A stretch of 64,000 nucleotides of DNA from Spirochaetae bacterium HGW-Spirochaetae-1 (GTDB lineage: Bacteria; Spirochaetota; UBA4802; UBA5550), in contig PGXY01000003.1 in NCBI GenBank assembly GCA_002839375.1, forward strand, positions 33,863 through 97,862, in the 5' to 3' direction. This document shows, piece by piece, positions 2,177-17,054 of the stretch (its first letter is position 1; every line of letters starts with the position of its first letter). Below the pieces are notes generated by a model that worked only from the letters and a program-made list of their open reading frames with translations, made no database searches and was not told the DNA's origin. The position numbers were made by a program, and so were the translations under genes.

Positions 2177-2320
2177 GGGGGTCAGAGCCTGCCTGGAAAC
2201 CACTTATTCTGTGAGGCTAAGACCCCAGCCCCCGTCGAATATACTCATTTTGTACTTTTATCTATCAATACTAGCCACTCTTTTGAAGGGGTTAAAAAAA
2301 TGATACTCTGACCCGCCTCA
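2177..2320 (-). repeat. Dispersed repeat, inverted copy D with paired ends
   Basis: Read on the minus strand from about 2295 to 2214 the sequence matches the ~80-bp repeat found at 12541, 14489 and 15913: an ACCCCTT-type arm, an AT-rich middle ending ATGAGTATATTCG, then CGGGGGCTGGGGTCTTAGCC. A GGGGGTCAGAGCC on the plus strand at 2177-2189 faces GGCTAAGACCCC at 2215-2226, so the ends can form a stem-loop. No minus-strand gene starts after this copy. A third GGGTCAGAG end lies, inverted, at about 2306-2314. Confidence 0.55.
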
Positions 2321-11497: not shown

Positions 11498-12427
11498 ATG
11501 ATTGACAAGGAAATGAAGGTGAATACGGCAGTTAAAATCGGCAGTCTTGTCCTCAAAAACCCCGTAACCGTTGCTTCGGGAACAGCAGGCTACGGCGAGG
11601 AACTTTCCCGTTTCATGGATATATCCCGCCTCGGTGCCATCTTCACCAAGGGCCTGAGCCTGAAACCCCGTATCGGAAACCGGGGCAACAGGGTCCTGGA
11701 AACTCCATCGGGACTGCTCAACTCAATCGGACTGGAAAATGTGGGACTCGATGCCTTTCTCGATAAAAAGCTCCCTTTTTTGTTAAAAAATAATGCCGAG
11801 GCCATCCCCAATGTGGCGGGTCATTCCGAGGATGAAAACGTGGAACTGTGCCGCATCCTTTCGGTCACGGGGGGCATACATGCCGTGGAGCTTAACGTAT
11901 CGTGCCCGAATGTTAAGGAGGGCGGTATCGCCTTCGGTACGAACCTGGAGGTCTTCACTCGTCTCCTGGAAAAAGTGAGGAAAGCCACGCAATGCGTCCT
12001 CATCGTGAAGCTTTCCCCGAACGTGACAGACATCACCCAGTTCGCCCTGCGGGCTCAGGAAGTGGGCGTTGACGCCCTTTCGGCAGTGAACACCTACCTG
12101 GGAATGAAAATCGACATAAAAACAGGCAAACCTCACTTCAACAACAAGGTAGCCGGCCTTAGCGGACCGGCCATACGCCCCCTGGCTGTGAGGACAGTGT
12201 ACCAGATATGCGAGAAGGTGAACATACCGGTCATCGGCCTGGGAGGCATCGCCTCACTGGAAGACATGCTGGAATTCATGATGGCCGGGGCCGCTGCGAT
12301 TTCCGTGGGCACCATGAACATGGTGGATCCCGACATCTCGGTGAGACTCATTGATGAGCTTGAATCATATATGCAGAATGAGAAAATCACCGATATTGCG
12401 GCGATCATCGGAAAGGCGCACCGTTGA
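11498..12427 (+). CDS. pyrD: Dihydroorotate dehydrogenase, class 1 (PyrD)
   Basis: The enzyme oxidises dihydroorotate to orotate in pyrimidine synthesis. The 309-residue FMN-barrel protein has LKNPVTVASGTAGYG at the N-terminus, ELNVSCPNVKEGG with the catalytic-base Cys typical of class 1B, LIVKLSPNVTDI, GLGGIASLEDMLEFMMAGA and AISVGTMN (phosphate binding). Class 1B enzymes normally pair with PyrK for electron transfer to NAD, but no pyrK is visible here. Start may be 11498 or 11513; neither has a convincing ribosome site. Confidence 0.92.
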   Translation: MIDKEMKVNTAVKIGSLVLKNPVTVASGTAGYGEELSRFMDISRLGAIFTKGLSLKPRIGNRGNRVLETPSGLLNSIGLENVGLDAFLDKKLPFLLKNNAEAIPNVAGHSEDENVELCRILSVTGGIHAVELNVSCPNVKEGGIAFGTNLEVFTRLLEKVRKATQCVLIVKLSPNVTDITQFALRAQEVGVDALSAVNTYLGMKIDIKTGKPHFNNKVAGLSGPAIRPLAVRTVYQICEKVNIPVIGLGGIASLEDMLEFMMAGAAAISVGTMNMVDPDISVRLIDELESYMQNEKITDIAAIIGKAHR

Positions 12428-12479
12428 TTTTCGCCCCCGGCGTATAAATTAATTATTTGGGAATAAACCGGTCGTCGCC

Positions 12480-12621
12480 GCCCCCGGAGGGGGCTTAGAA
12501 TTAAAACTTTTTATTGATATTTATAAAAAACAGCCAATTATTAAACCCCTTGTGGGGGTGGCGACTGCATATTGATATATATTAGCAGATTTATTCGCCG
12601 GGGTCGGCCTCTATGCTTCTT
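12480..12621 (+). repeat. Dispersed ~80-bp repeat copy A before the hisC-like gene
   Basis: A GCCCCC/GGGGGC mini-hairpin (12480-12494) is followed by repeat copy A (12541-12620): ACCCC..GGGGGTGGCGAC arm, AT-rich centre, ATTCGCCGGGG and a degenerate TCGGCCTCTATGC end. The end lies 57 bases before the downstream start codon and in the same orientation as that gene. Copies B and C have equivalent positions before other genes. Confidence 0.6.
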
Positions 12622-12676
12622 TAAGTATATTATACAATATTATATTTTAAAAAATTATTCTTTTCCGGAGAAACAC

Positions 12677-13723
12677 ATGAAATACTGGAACAGCACACTG
12701 CAAAAAATGGACGAGTACGTTCCCGGCGAGCAGCCGGAAAATCTCGATCAGTACATAAAACTCAACACCAATGAAAATCCTTTCCCTCCTTCAAAATCAG
12801 TCCTGGAGGCCATAAGGAACGCCGTCAATGACAATCTGCGCCGTTATCCCAATCCCACGGGCAATACGGTAAGGGGACTCTTTGCTGCGGAGAACGGCAT
12901 CAGCGCCGACAATGTCTTCATAGGAAACGGGTCTGATGAAATTTTCACGCTCATTTTCAGAGGCTTCATCGAAAAAAACGGGACCGCTGCGTTCCCCTAT
13001 CCTTCCTACTCTCTGTATAACACTCTTGCCCAGGGAAACGGTATCGCCTTTGAAACGGTGCCCCTCAAAAAGGATTTCTCCTACGACCTGAATCTCTTTC
13101 TGAAAAAAGCCTATGACCTGGTGATCATCGCCAATCCCAATAATCCCACGGCGACCTATTGTTCCGTCGAGGAGATCGACCGTTTCTGTTCCAGGTTCAA
13201 AGGACTGCTGGTCGTTGATGAGGCATACATCGATTTCTACGGCGGATCTTCGCTCGCGCTTATACAAAAATACGACAACCTCATTGTCACCCGCTCCTTT
13301 TCAAAATCCTACTCCCTGGCAGGACTCCGCGTGGGCATGGCCCTGGCCAATGCCGACATTATACGGGGGCTGGTGAAGATAAAGGATTCGTATAACGTGG
13401 ATATGCTTGCCCTTGCGGGCGCGGGCGCGGCACTTAAAGACACCAAAGCATTCAATTACAACATAGAGATGATGAGAAACAACAAGGAGTACCTGGAAGA
13501 GCGCCTCGAAGGGCTGGGATTCACCTCGATTCCTTCCAGAGCCAATTTCATCTTTACAAAACATCCCGGTGTTTCGGCCACGGAGATATACGAGGCCCTG
13601 AAGGAACAAAAGATACTCGTGCGCCACTTCAAAGGAGATGTCCTGTCCGAATATATCCGCATATCGGTGGGCACCATGATGGAGATAAAGGCCCTGTGCA
13701 AGGCCCTGGAGACTATTGTGTGA
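12677..13723 (+). CDS. hisC: HisC-like PLP-dependent aminotransferase (histidinol-phosphate aminotransferase family)
   Basis: This 348-residue fold-type I aminotransferase has family signatures: YIKLNTNENPFPPS, RRYPNPTGNTVRGL, IGNGSDEIF, IIANPNNPTATY, VVDEAYIDF, and the PLP-lysine block RSFSKSYSLAGLRVG. Arg near the end (EYIRISVGT) binds substrate carboxylate. HisC transfers the amino group from glutamate to imidazole acetol phosphate in histidine synthesis, but the family also includes aromatic aminotransferases and no other his gene is near. ATG 12677 has GGAG eight bases upstream, and the longer in-frame extension runs through AT-rich repeat DNA. The gene overlaps the converging lipoprotein gene by 11 bp. 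Confidence 0.85.
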   Translation: MKYWNSTLQKMDEYVPGEQPENLDQYIKLNTNENPFPPSKSVLEAIRNAVNDNLRRYPNPTGNTVRGLFAAENGISADNVFIGNGSDEIFTLIFRGFIEKNGTAAFPYPSYSLYNTLAQGNGIAFETVPLKKDFSYDLNLFLKKAYDLVIIANPNNPTATYCSVEEIDRFCSRFKGLLVVDEAYIDFYGGSSLALIQKYDNLIVTRSFSKSYSLAGLRVGMALANADIIRGLVKIKDSYNVDMLALAGAGAALKDTKAFNYNIEMMRNNKEYLEERLEGLGFTSIPSRANFIFTKHPGVSATEIYEALKEQKILVRHFKGDVLSEYIRISVGTMMEIKALCKALETIV

Positions 13724-14360
13724 ACCGGATAATTTTCCCCGAGGTGTTGGTAACGGTGCTGCGCTGAACCAGTTCATCAAAGGTGAGCTGATTGATTTCG
13801 TATTTCAGCACGTCCTCTTTCTGTATCCAGATATTCACCTGCTCATCGGAATCGACGCCCTTCCATTTAAAACCGATGACCATTCCCACGACTTCTTTTT
13901 CACCGAAGATGGTCTTGCACGAGTTCATGGTTTCCATAATGGATTCCATGTACTCATGAATGAGGGCCAGGGCGACCCTGTCATACTGTTTATTTGAAAT
14001 ATCCCCGGCCAGAATGTCCAGTCCCAGGTAAAGCCGGTCACGATCTGATGACTTCTTGTCAAAATAGAAACCGATACTCCCCTTGCCGATGGTCATGCCC
14101 TTGTTTTCCGTGATATCGCCGGCGATGCCAATGAGATATTTATGATAACGGTCCTGAAATGCCGCTCCATTGGTGGTATAACGCTGAATGTCAACAAGCA
14201 GATCGGCATACTTTTCATTCTTTTCCTGAGAGTATTGATTGAGAATGGCCTTTTCCCTCACCTCTCTCTGCCTGTCAGGATCCTTGACTGAACGGGAACC
14301 ACAGGTGGAAAGAAACAGAATGATTATGATGATAAAAAATTTGACAATTCTGGAGTTCAT
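13713..14360 (-). CDS. Small lipoprotein of unknown function
   Basis: The 215-residue product begins MNSRIVKFFIIIIILFLSTC, a compact lipoprotein signal with lipobox LSTC. The rest is soluble and mixed alpha/beta: a helical segment (REKAILNQYSQEKNEKYADLL), then IGIAGDITENKG, LYLGLDILAGD and VVGMVIGFKWKGVD. No family was recognised. The start at 14360 gives a normal signal peptide; ATGs farther upstream would add an atypical N-terminus. The 3' ends of this gene and the hisC-like gene overlap, which leaves no room for a separate terminator. Confidence 0.7.
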   Translation of the reverse strand: MNSRIVKFFIIIIILFLSTCGSRSVKDPDRQREVREKAILNQYSQEKNEKYADLLVDIQRYTTNGAAFQDRYHKYLIGIAGDITENKGMTIGKGSIGFYFDKKSSDRDRLYLGLDILAGDISNKQYDRVALALIHEYMESIMETMNSCKTIFGEKEVVGMVIGFKWKGVDSDEQVNIWIQKEDVLKYEINQLTFDELVQRSTVTNTSGKIIRFTQ

Positions 14361-14488
14361 GGCGATTACATACCTCGTTTGCATGATAACACTTTTCAAT
14401 ATAATTATCGTATAAAATCGGTATAAATTAAAGCACGAAATTACCCCTGAGATATAAGACTTGGTTTCCGGGGGGTCAGAGCTTCGGT

Positions 14489-14568
14489 TTAAACCCCCTC
14501 AAGGGGGTGGTGACAATCGATAAATGAGCATAATGAGTGTCTTCGCCGGGGACCGGGGTCAGAGCCCT
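14489..14568 (+). repeat. Dispersed ~80-bp repeat copy B before the NamZ-like gene
   Basis: This is the best-preserved copy: a perfect ACCCCCT-CA-AGGGGGT hairpin at 14493-14508, TGGTGAC, an AT-rich centre with ATAAATGAGCATAATGAG, then CTTCGCCGGGG and CCGGGGTCAGAGCC ending near 14568. The preceding 14471-14482 carries another GGGGGTCAGAGC, as if two elements abut. The copy ends about 52 bases before the chosen start of the downstream gene. Confidence 0.65.
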
Positions 14569-14619
14569 CCCGATTCCCGGGATTTAACTAATATGGAAAA
14601 TAGACCGAAAATAAGTAAC

Positions 14620-15891
14620 ATGAAAAGTAAAATAATTCAAAAACACGGAACATTGATACGAATACTTATATTCCCGGCAATTATTTCTATTTTATCCTGT
14701 TTATCCTGCGCCTCAAAAGCCGACTACTACCTCCCCGTTACTCCTTCATATGTGAAGACGGGACTGGAGGTATTTCTAAAAAAGCATGCGAAAAAATACA
14801 AGGGAAAAAACTGTCTCCTCATCACCAATCATTCCGGGGTAAACCGCGACCTGCAGTCAAATATAAACCTCCTCCGGGAAAAGGGTATCATCATCTATAT
14901 GGTCATGGCCCCGGAACACGGCATTTACGGATACGAAAACGAGTATGATAAAAGGCTGTATAACGGCGACGATACGCACGGCGCCGTCATCTACAACATG
15001 CATAAACTGGAACAGGGTCAGGTCCGTTTCCTGGCCGGAAAGGCCGATATAGTCATCTTTGATATCCAGGATATGGGCATGCGCTGCTACACCTATGTTT
15101 CGGACCTGAAGTTCGTCATGGACGACCTGCACGATACGGACAAGGAACTCATTGTACTGGACCGCCCCGATCCCATAGGCTACCTGGGCATTGACGGGGC
15201 CATGCTCGACAATAAATTTTTCACCCGTTTCGTCAGTTCCTTCCCGGCCCCCTTTATATACAACATGACCATGGGAGAAGCGGCCCTCTATTACCGCGGC
15301 GAAACGGGAAAGAAAATCAAGCTCCGTGTCATTCCCATGCAGGGCTATGACCGCCGTATGTTTTATCATAATACGGGCCTTCCCTGGATACCGCCCTCGC
15401 CCAATCTGCCCACGTATGAATCGGCCATAATCTACTCAGGCATGGTTCTCATGGAAGGAATAAACATTTCCCTTGGCAGGGGGACCACCAAGCCATTCCA
15501 GTATATCGGCGCCCCCTGGATAGACGCGGCTACATTCTGCCGTGACCTTAACGGCCTGGGCCTTAAAAATTTCCGATTCAGGCCCATTTACTTTGAGCCC
15601 ACATTCAGCAAATATCGAGGACAAAAATGCGGCGGCGCCCACATCCTTTACACCGGCGGTGTCTTCAGCCCCACGGAAGTTTCCTACAGGATAATTCAGT
15701 ATATCCTGAAAAATTATCGTTATGCGAAATGGGAAAAACACAAGGTCTGGTACAGTGTAGACACCCTGGCCGGAACCGATACCTTCAGAACATCCATAAA
15801 CGAAGGAAAGAGCTTCGGGGAATTCCAGGCTTCCATAAAGAAACGACAAAAGAAATTCCTCAAAAAAAGAAAGAAATATACCCTGTATTGA
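14620..15891 (+). CDS. DUF1343 / NamZ-like exo-beta-N-acetylmuramidase, lipoprotein
   Basis: PF07075 (DUF1343) includes NamZ, which removes terminal N-acetylmuramic acid from peptidoglycan fragments. Family blocks are LLITNHSGVNRDL, APEHGIYG, DIVIFDIQDMGMRCYTYVS, IVLDRPDPIG, MTMGEAALYY, PWIPPSPNLPT and EGINISLGRGTTKPFQYIGAPW. The product (423 residues from this start) begins with a signal ending LSCLSC, suggesting an outer-membrane or periplasmic lipoprotein. ATG 14620 fits the signal peptide best; 14593 is possible, and 14524 lies inside repeat DNA. It may serve cell-wall recycling or scavenging. GalM lies next downstream, separated by another repeat copy. Confidence 0.85.
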   Translation: MKSKIIQKHGTLIRILIFPAIISILSCLSCASKADYYLPVTPSYVKTGLEVFLKKHAKKYKGKNCLLITNHSGVNRDLQSNINLLREKGIIIYMVMAPEHGIYGYENEYDKRLYNGDDTHGAVIYNMHKLEQGQVRFLAGKADIVIFDIQDMGMRCYTYVSDLKFVMDDLHDTDKELIVLDRPDPIGYLGIDGAMLDNKFFTRFVSSFPAPFIYNMTMGEAALYYRGETGKKIKLRVIPMQGYDRRMFYHNTGLPWIPPSPNLPTYESAIIYSGMVLMEGINISLGRGTTKPFQYIGAPWIDAATFCRDLNGLGLKNFRFRPIYFEPTFSKYRGQKCGGAHILYTGGVFSPTEVSYRIIQYILKNYRYAKWEKHKVWYSVDTLAGTDTFRTSINEGKSFGEFQASIKKRQKKFLKKRKKYTLY

Positions 15892-15912
15892 TTCTTTTCC
15901 AATATGACAGAG

Positions 15913-15995
15913 CATATGCCCCCGAGGGAGGGGCGAGTATCAATAAATGCAAGGATTGAGCATATCCGCCCGGGGCCGGTTTCAGAGCCTGAATC
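15913..15995 (+). repeat. Dispersed ~80-bp repeat copy C before galM
   Basis: The copy contains GCCCCCGAGGGAGGGGC, an AT-rich centre ATCAATAAATGCAAGG, TTGAGCATATCCGCCCGGGGCCGG and TTTCAGAGCC. It has the same orientation as copies A and B and ends about 34 bases before the galM start. Confidence 0.6.
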
Positions 15996-16028: not shown

Positions 16029-17054
16029 ATGAAAGAATACCGCGGTAAATGTCCTCACGGAGAGGATGTGTATCTCTGCACCCTGTCCAACAAAAACAAT
16101 ATGTCCGTTGCAATCACCAATTACGGCGGAACAATTACATCCCTCTCGGTACCGGACCGTCACGGTGTCATCGAAGATATCGTGCTCGGTTTTGATGCGG
16201 TGGAGGAGTATTACGGCGTGCATCCCTACTTCGGCGCCATGGTTGGACGCCATGCCAACCGGATTGGCGGCGCCTCCTTTACACTCGGCGGAAAGATATA
16301 CCGCCTTGCCGCCAACGACAACGGCATTAATCATCTTCACGGGGGTCTGCGCGGATTCGACAGGAAAACATGGACCGTGGAGCGCCATGATGAACATTTG
16401 CTGCAGCTATCCTGCCAAAGCCTTAACGGCGAAGAGGGATACCCGGGAAACCTTGAAGTGAATGTCACCTATGAACTCACGGAAGACAACAGGCTCTCCC
16501 TGCACTATTGCGCTACAACCGACGCTGCCACGCCGGTCAATCTCACCAATCACAGCTACTTCAATTTAACCGCCGGCCGGGATACGGTTCTTTTTCACAA
16601 GATATTGATCAATGCCGATGCATACACTGCGACCGATGAAAGCCTGATTCCCACGGGACATCTAATCCCCGTCAGGGGTACGGCCATGGATTTTACTGTT
16701 TTAAAGGCGATCGGGAAAGATCTGAACGGCGTAAAAGGCGGATACGACCACAACTATGTTCTTAACTCGTGGGACCGGAAAATGCAATTCGCAGCCGAGG
16801 TTGTTGAACCGGTGAGCGGCCGCTGCATGGAATTATATACCACAATGCCGGGCCTGCAGTTTTATACGGGCAATTTCCTCGATGGAAGCATCACGGGAAA
16901 GAAAGGAACCATTTACAATAAGCATGCCGGCTTCTGTCTTGAAACGCAATACTTTCCCGACTCCCCGAACAGGCCCGAATTTCCCTCGTCCATATTGCTG
17001 CCCGGCGAGGAATACAGTCATGCGACAGTCTATTGCTTTTCCGTGAAACCTTAG
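16029..17054 (+). CDS. galM: Aldose 1-epimerase (mutarotase, GalM)
   Basis: GalM interconverts alpha- and beta-anomers of aldoses such as galactose and glucose. The 341-residue protein has ITNYGGTITSLSVPD, GAMVGRHANRI, NHLHGG, the catalytic-acid His in NHSYFNL (about residue 175), DHNYVLN and the catalytic-base Glu in FCLETQYFPDSPNRP (about 304). No signal peptide was seen, so it is probably cytoplasmic. The gene starts about 34 bases after repeat copy C. No galactose-pathway genes accompany it. Confidence 0.92.
   Translation: MKEYRGKCPHGEDVYLCTLSNKNNMSVAITNYGGTITSLSVPDRHGVIEDIVLGFDAVEEYYGVHPYFGAMVGRHANRIGGASFTLGGKIYRLAANDNGINHLHGGLRGFDRKTWTVERHDEHLLQLSCQSLNGEEGYPGNLEVNVTYELTEDNRLSLHYCATTDAATPVNLTNHSYFNLTAGRDTVLFHKILINADAYTATDESLIPTGHLIPVRGTAMDFTVLKAIGKDLNGVKGGYDHNYVLNSWDRKMQFAAEVVEPVSGRCMELYTTMPGLQFYTGNFLDGSITGKKGTIYNKHAGFCLETQYFPDSPNRPEFPSSILLPGEEYSHATVYCFSVKP

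Follow-up and report, generated by a model that had tools for sequence, protein, structure and literature searches.

The closest described systems to the repeat reported here are the REPINs, inverted doublets of REP sequences that together with an intervening spacer form a hairpin (PMC3116915), and the GTAG and CGTC REPs, which occur mainly as head-to-head dimers, often as heterodimers, downstream of genes (PMC3733652). The CGTC repeats have no dedicated transposase, and they occur in spirochaetes (PMC3733652). The family we describe comprises about 90 half-elements of about 63 nt each in the 5.2-Mb genome of Spirochaetae bacterium HGW-Spirochaetae-1; it is apparently undescribed, and ordinary in kind. 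We consider it highly probable that its copies in the window studied here (64,000 nt of contig PGXY01000003.1, positions 33,863 to 97,862) represent a dispersed non-coding palindromic mobile repeat, REPIN- or MITE-like in the way it works.

The initial annotation of this window had reported three look-alike copies of an element. These are real, with plus-strand starts at about 12541, 14490 and 15915, but the set was incomplete, lacking a fourth that lies on the minus strand (12433-12499). The copies, their neighbouring genes and the motifs of a second, separate repeat are as follows.

61-71 and 2178-2188, plus strand: further GGGGTCAGAGC motifs in the window
11498-12427, plus strand: pyrD (dihydroorotate dehydrogenase; PF01180, E 3e-72), upstream of the pair
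12433-12499, minus strand: half-element, G-C closed, 5-run type (model match 56.1 bits, E 8.5e-16); P1 at 12480-12494 (GCCCCC-GGA-GGGGGC on the plus strand), P2 at 12439-12443 with 12475-12479, terminal G-run (on the minus strand) at 12434-12438
12541-12604, plus strand: half-element, A-T closed, tail GGGGT (copy 1 of the initial annotation); P1 at 12545-12559, P2 at 12560-12564 with 12595-12599, tail GGGG at 12600-12603
12677-13723, plus strand: hisC-like aminotransferase (PF00155 and synteny), downstream of the pair
14473-14483, plus strand: GGGGTCAGAGC motif of the RAYT-linked family, flanking copy 2
14490-14552, plus strand: single half-element (copy 2) between two divergent genes; P1 at 14493-14508, P2 at 14509-14513 with 14543-14547, tail GGGG at 14548-14551
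14556-14566, plus strand: second GGGGTCAGAGC motif flanking copy 2, the source of the string 'GTCAGAGCC' in the initial annotation
14620-15891, plus strand: namZ (exo-beta-N-acetylmuramidase; PF07075, PF20732), with a lipoprotein-like start at 14620
15915-15977, plus strand: single degenerate half-element with an imperfect P1 (copy 3), between namZ and galM
16029-17054, plus strand: galM (aldose 1-epimerase; PF01263)

In the window sequence the minus-strand copy begins 6 nt past the pyrD stop codon and forms with copy 1 a single head-to-head pair in the pyrD-hisC interval, the two being separated by a spacer of about 42 bp. Copies 2 and 3 are both unpaired halves. The distances of 34-57 nt originally given from copy to start codon are right (57, about 52 and 34 nt), and reading the window confirmed the common C4-5/G4-5 hairpin and AT-rich middle; the window copies also have CGCCGGGG or CGCCCGGGG in common. 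Two further parts of the proposed consensus had to be dropped: the '(A/T)TGAG' end of the AT-rich centre is not conserved across the family alignment, and 'GTCAGAGCC' is missing from copy 1 and from the other family copies, the repeated unit stopping at CGCCGGGG(G). That string belongs to the separate GGGGTCAGAGC repeat, and it was the two GGGGTCAGAGC copies flanking copy 2 that misled the consensus.

Within the genome, a degenerate core pattern matched nine times, eight of these with an identical length of 51 nt, and its reversed control gave no match. A sequence-only model built on 11 copies returned 94 matches at E<1, of which about 70 remained at E<1e-3; 90 halves were aligned and then re-read with a profile, and the copy count is possibly a lower bound, 150 candidates having been scored by the model search. 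Neighbouring halves less than 250 bp apart (n=27) lie head-to-head in 24 cases, head-to-tail in three and tail-to-tail in none. The copies resolve into 66 units, 24 pairs and 42 singles, and every one is intergenic as judged with a simple hexamer gene caller (66/66), as against a window that is about 88% coding. The spacers within pairs in this genome span about 20-110 bp and have no visible likeness to one another, and 17 of the 21 typed pairs are heterodimers in which one half is A-T closed and the other G-C closed (10.1 expected, p=0.002). Since no inverted partner was detectable beside 37 of the 42 singles, and about five had a recognisable partner remnant, the pair may not be the sole unit. 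Outside the stems the half-elements of this genome are strongly diverged and give no sign of current mobility.

The distribution of the family along the genome is uneven, with a dense cluster of several units at G000:C3 157-178 kb (L045, L046). The genes in this densest region (C3:155-180 kb) are ordinary and unrelated, and none of the ten proteins scanned there is a transposase. Elsewhere, three similar half-elements in one orientation are spaced about 870-920 bp apart beside a Fic-domain gene (L047, G000:C2, 183.9-185.8 kb), an arrangement that looks like a local duplication.

Each half is laid out as a P1 hairpin, GGCGA, an AT-rich stretch, TCGCC and GGGG(G). P1 is in most copies a 6-bp stem with a triloop, and P2 a stem of 4-5 bp closing an AT-rich loop of about 30 nt, followed by four or five G residues. 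Three combinations of P1 pairs are common, with A-T or G-C at the outer position and C-G or T-A at the inner; the outer pair is Watson-Crick in 67 of 72 halves (shuffle mean 40, maximum 50) and the inner in 64 of 72 (shuffle mean 36, maximum 50). P2 (GGCGA/TCGCC) also covaries, most clearly in relatives, where its fourth position is paired in 41 of 43 halves as GC, CG, AT or TA (shuffle maximum 28). Such counts can be inflated by sequence relatedness, but the occurrence of several pair types across different genera speaks for genuine constraint. The terminal G-run tracks the P1 C-run in length (30 and 31 concordant versus 4 and 1, p=2e-13) in both closing-pair types; this may reflect two subfamilies, or the tail may pair alternatively with the 5' arm of P1. 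Folded as DNA, the whole window pair forms one large hairpin (z -4.3 versus shuffles), and a copy of the pair from a relative, G004, folded as RNA, gave z -4.5. Isolated halves showed no clear gain in folding over shuffled sequences (z -1.9 to 0.1), and the case for the fold is therefore made by covariation and by the pair.

Compensatory changes in a conserved fold, together with three sense copies 34-57 nt upstream of start codons in the window, are what would be expected of a structured cis-regulatory RNA in the 5' UTRs of hisC, namZ and galM, for example a riboswitch or a leader, and such an RNA was one of two readings initially offered. Covariation alone is, however, unable to tell an RNA function from a hairpin required by a mobile repeat, and the placement of the family speaks against a leader. 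Pairs hug gene 3' ends (median 18 bp) and stay clear of start codons (median 120 bp; p=2e-8), so that the 5'-UTR position is no property of the family; they lie between tandem genes in 18 cases, divergent genes in three and convergent genes in three. Singles between co-directional genes are sense in 13 cases and antisense in nine (p=0.52), and the earlier statement that all copies are oriented like the downstream gene already fails for the fourth window copy, which faces the opposite way. The neighbouring genes are functionally unrelated and form no coherent set, the P2 loop, where a ligand might bind, is poorly conserved across the family alignment, and no relevant Rfam match was found at gathering or relaxed thresholds. 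The survey of the whole genome and of relatives that had been proposed as a check returned the compensatory changes but neither the orientation bias nor the 5'-UTR bias. We regard a regulatory RNA as very improbable, and that reading as largely refuted.

The same position next to gene 3' ends, with G+C-rich hairpins pointing in both directions, raises the alternative that the element is maintained as a bidirectional terminator or a 3'-end stabiliser of mRNA, roles that REPs are thought to have in other bacteria (PMC3733652). Yet TTT follows P1 within 6 nt, in the inward reading, in only 14 of 74 hairpins, none of the four window copies scored as terminator-like, solitary halves have no preference for a matching orientation at 3' ends, and presence among relatives is patchy. 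Maintenance for such a function appears improbable to us; it could be a secondary effect of insertions.

Within the taxonomic family, six of the 20 genomes have the element, this one included, and it was absent under stricter filters from 373 other genomes sampled across the phylum; viral contigs gave no match to the element profile. Among the matches listed from a pattern scan of a genome collection, almost all were chance matches in G+C-rich genomes, and the one true pair among them lay on VFJS01000030, from a 'Spirochaetia bacterium' MAG that is apparently the same genome as G004. Synteny of pyrD, hisC and the gene after them extends across most of the taxonomic family, and the gap between pyrD and hisC is 31 bp or less in nine of 16 relatives (estimated at minus-strand loci from the end of the pyrD alignment), versus 250 bp here, with the pair inside. 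Gaps as long as 410 bp occur in some relatives that have no element there, which leaves gap length by itself suggestive. More telling is the lack of the element: neither the 17 other hisC orthologues nor those of namZ in relatives gave a significant match to it. Judged from these alignments, the minus-strand copy and copy 1 look like an insertion between pyrD and hisC, and the element-free orthologues and short gaps weigh most heavily of all against a gene-specific role in regulation.

In G004 two copies of about 330 bp are 95% identical, which suggests recent mobility in that genome, while the others are about 75-78% identical; a spacer of about 100 bp is conserved among the G004 copies of the family. 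The initial suggestion of a mobile repeat adopted as a 5' UTR therefore survives in its first half, on the strength of about 90 dispersed intergenic copies, head-to-head pairs, the pyrD-hisC insertion and near-identical copies in a relative; the adoption as a 5' UTR does not. Two structural variants were seen in relatives. An outer inverted repeat containing GTAG, CCCTCTCCC...GGGCTNACTTCTACC / GGTAGAAGTNAGCCC...GGGAGAGGG, encloses the copies in G004 (L244, L247, L250, L253, L256, L259, L261, L264), an arrangement suggesting that one repeat family is nested in the other or that the two move together. Compact variants occur in G014 (L088, L093), in which the halves appear to share a central hairpin, giving a cloverleaf-like form with an outer C/G stem.

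With regard to the enzyme that might move such a repeat, this genome carries five RAYT-like genes (Y1, PF01797). The palindromes flanking four of them are GGGGTCAGAGC or GGGTCAGAGC, and those flanking the fifth are GCTCAGAGTAAA; the GGGTCAGAGC variant sits at one RAYT gene, and the GCTCAGAGTAAA palindrome at the fifth (L312, G000:C11, about 192.2-193.2 kb) includes a 32-nt perfect inverted repeat. The GGGGTCAGAGC motif has 168 exact copies in the genome (reversed control 0), often in inverted pairs. RAYT linkage of the element itself was considered and rejected, as none of 20 Y1 loci carries it (seven in G004, five in this genome and eight in three other relatives; flank sequences were examined in detail at nine loci).

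The missing RAYT linkage, and the presence of two dissimilar ends on either side of an internal region conserved in G004, would fit a MITE of a classical DDE transposon whose terminal inverted repeats are the outer C/G runs, as opposed to the single-strand hairpin route proposed for REPINs. Against this, the stems within each end covary, which recognition of double-stranded terminal inverted repeats would not need, and no transposon with such ends was found: no pair of element ends was seen around a transposase gene, and neither the loci read nor the spacing of hits, in a set where several assemblies are fragmented, contained an autonomous parent with the same ends. None of 23 pairs has a target-site duplication of 5 bp or more, a weak point since the copies are old. 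We judge a DDE-type MITE unlikely.

We favor instead a palindromic mobile repeat whose unit would be a head-to-head inverted pair of usually unlike halves of about 63 nt around a short, unconserved AT-rich spacer. When single-stranded, the pair would form one large hairpin, probably the target of a transposition enzyme; both this mode of mobilisation and the recognition of a single strand are what we infer. Insertions would survive between genes, mostly just past stop codons, and the minus-strand copy together with copy 1 would be such a pair put between pyrD and hisC.

Compared with known systems, the element resembles REPINs (PMC3116915) in its palindromic ends arranged as inverted pairs, a spacer of low conservation, intergenic position, compensatory changes and large single-strand hairpin. 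It differs from them in that each end consists of two stems over about 63 nt and not of one short REP, that the search yielded no RAYT with matching flanks, and that the spacer ranges widely in length, from about 20 to 110 bp. The initial remark that no family with such a layout is described thus holds for the family itself, which we did not find described, but not for the layout, inverted heterodimers of palindromes being that of REPINs. Like the GTAG and CGTC REPs (PMC3733652), the element is mostly head-to-head, commonly heterodimeric and located downstream of genes, and as with CGTC no dedicated transposase was found for it. In contrast to both, it is a two-stem unit with a terminal G-run and a 6-bp triloop stem of C4-5/G4-5, and the family alignment has no GTAG or CGTC tag beside P1, GTAG being present only in the outer repeat around the G004 copies. 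As neither the tag nor RAYT linkage, both of them defining traits, was found, we call the element REPIN-like and do not file it in the GTAG or CGTC families. The GGGGTCAGAGC palindromes are likewise dispersed, often in inverted pairs, in the same genomes, but they differ in sequence and directly flank RAYT genes. With bacterial MITEs and other small mobile sequences (PMC2229807) the element shares short length, non-coding character and inverted ends, but it has no target-site duplication or identified parent transposon.

More tentatively, and with some doubt, we speculate that the family is a distinct class of palindromic mobile repeat within one spirochaete family, with bipartite two-stem ends, unlike halves, a G-run whose length follows the P1 stem and spread by a non-RAYT enzyme. 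For the annotation of similar loci, covariation and a 5'-UTR position in one window are too little for a riboswitch call, as a mobile repeat that needs a hairpin mimics that signal. The element adds an orphan two-stem REPIN-like family to the spirochaetes, beside RAYT-linked repeats in the same genomes, and with it the question of what mobilises untagged repeats becomes testable in relatives such as G004.
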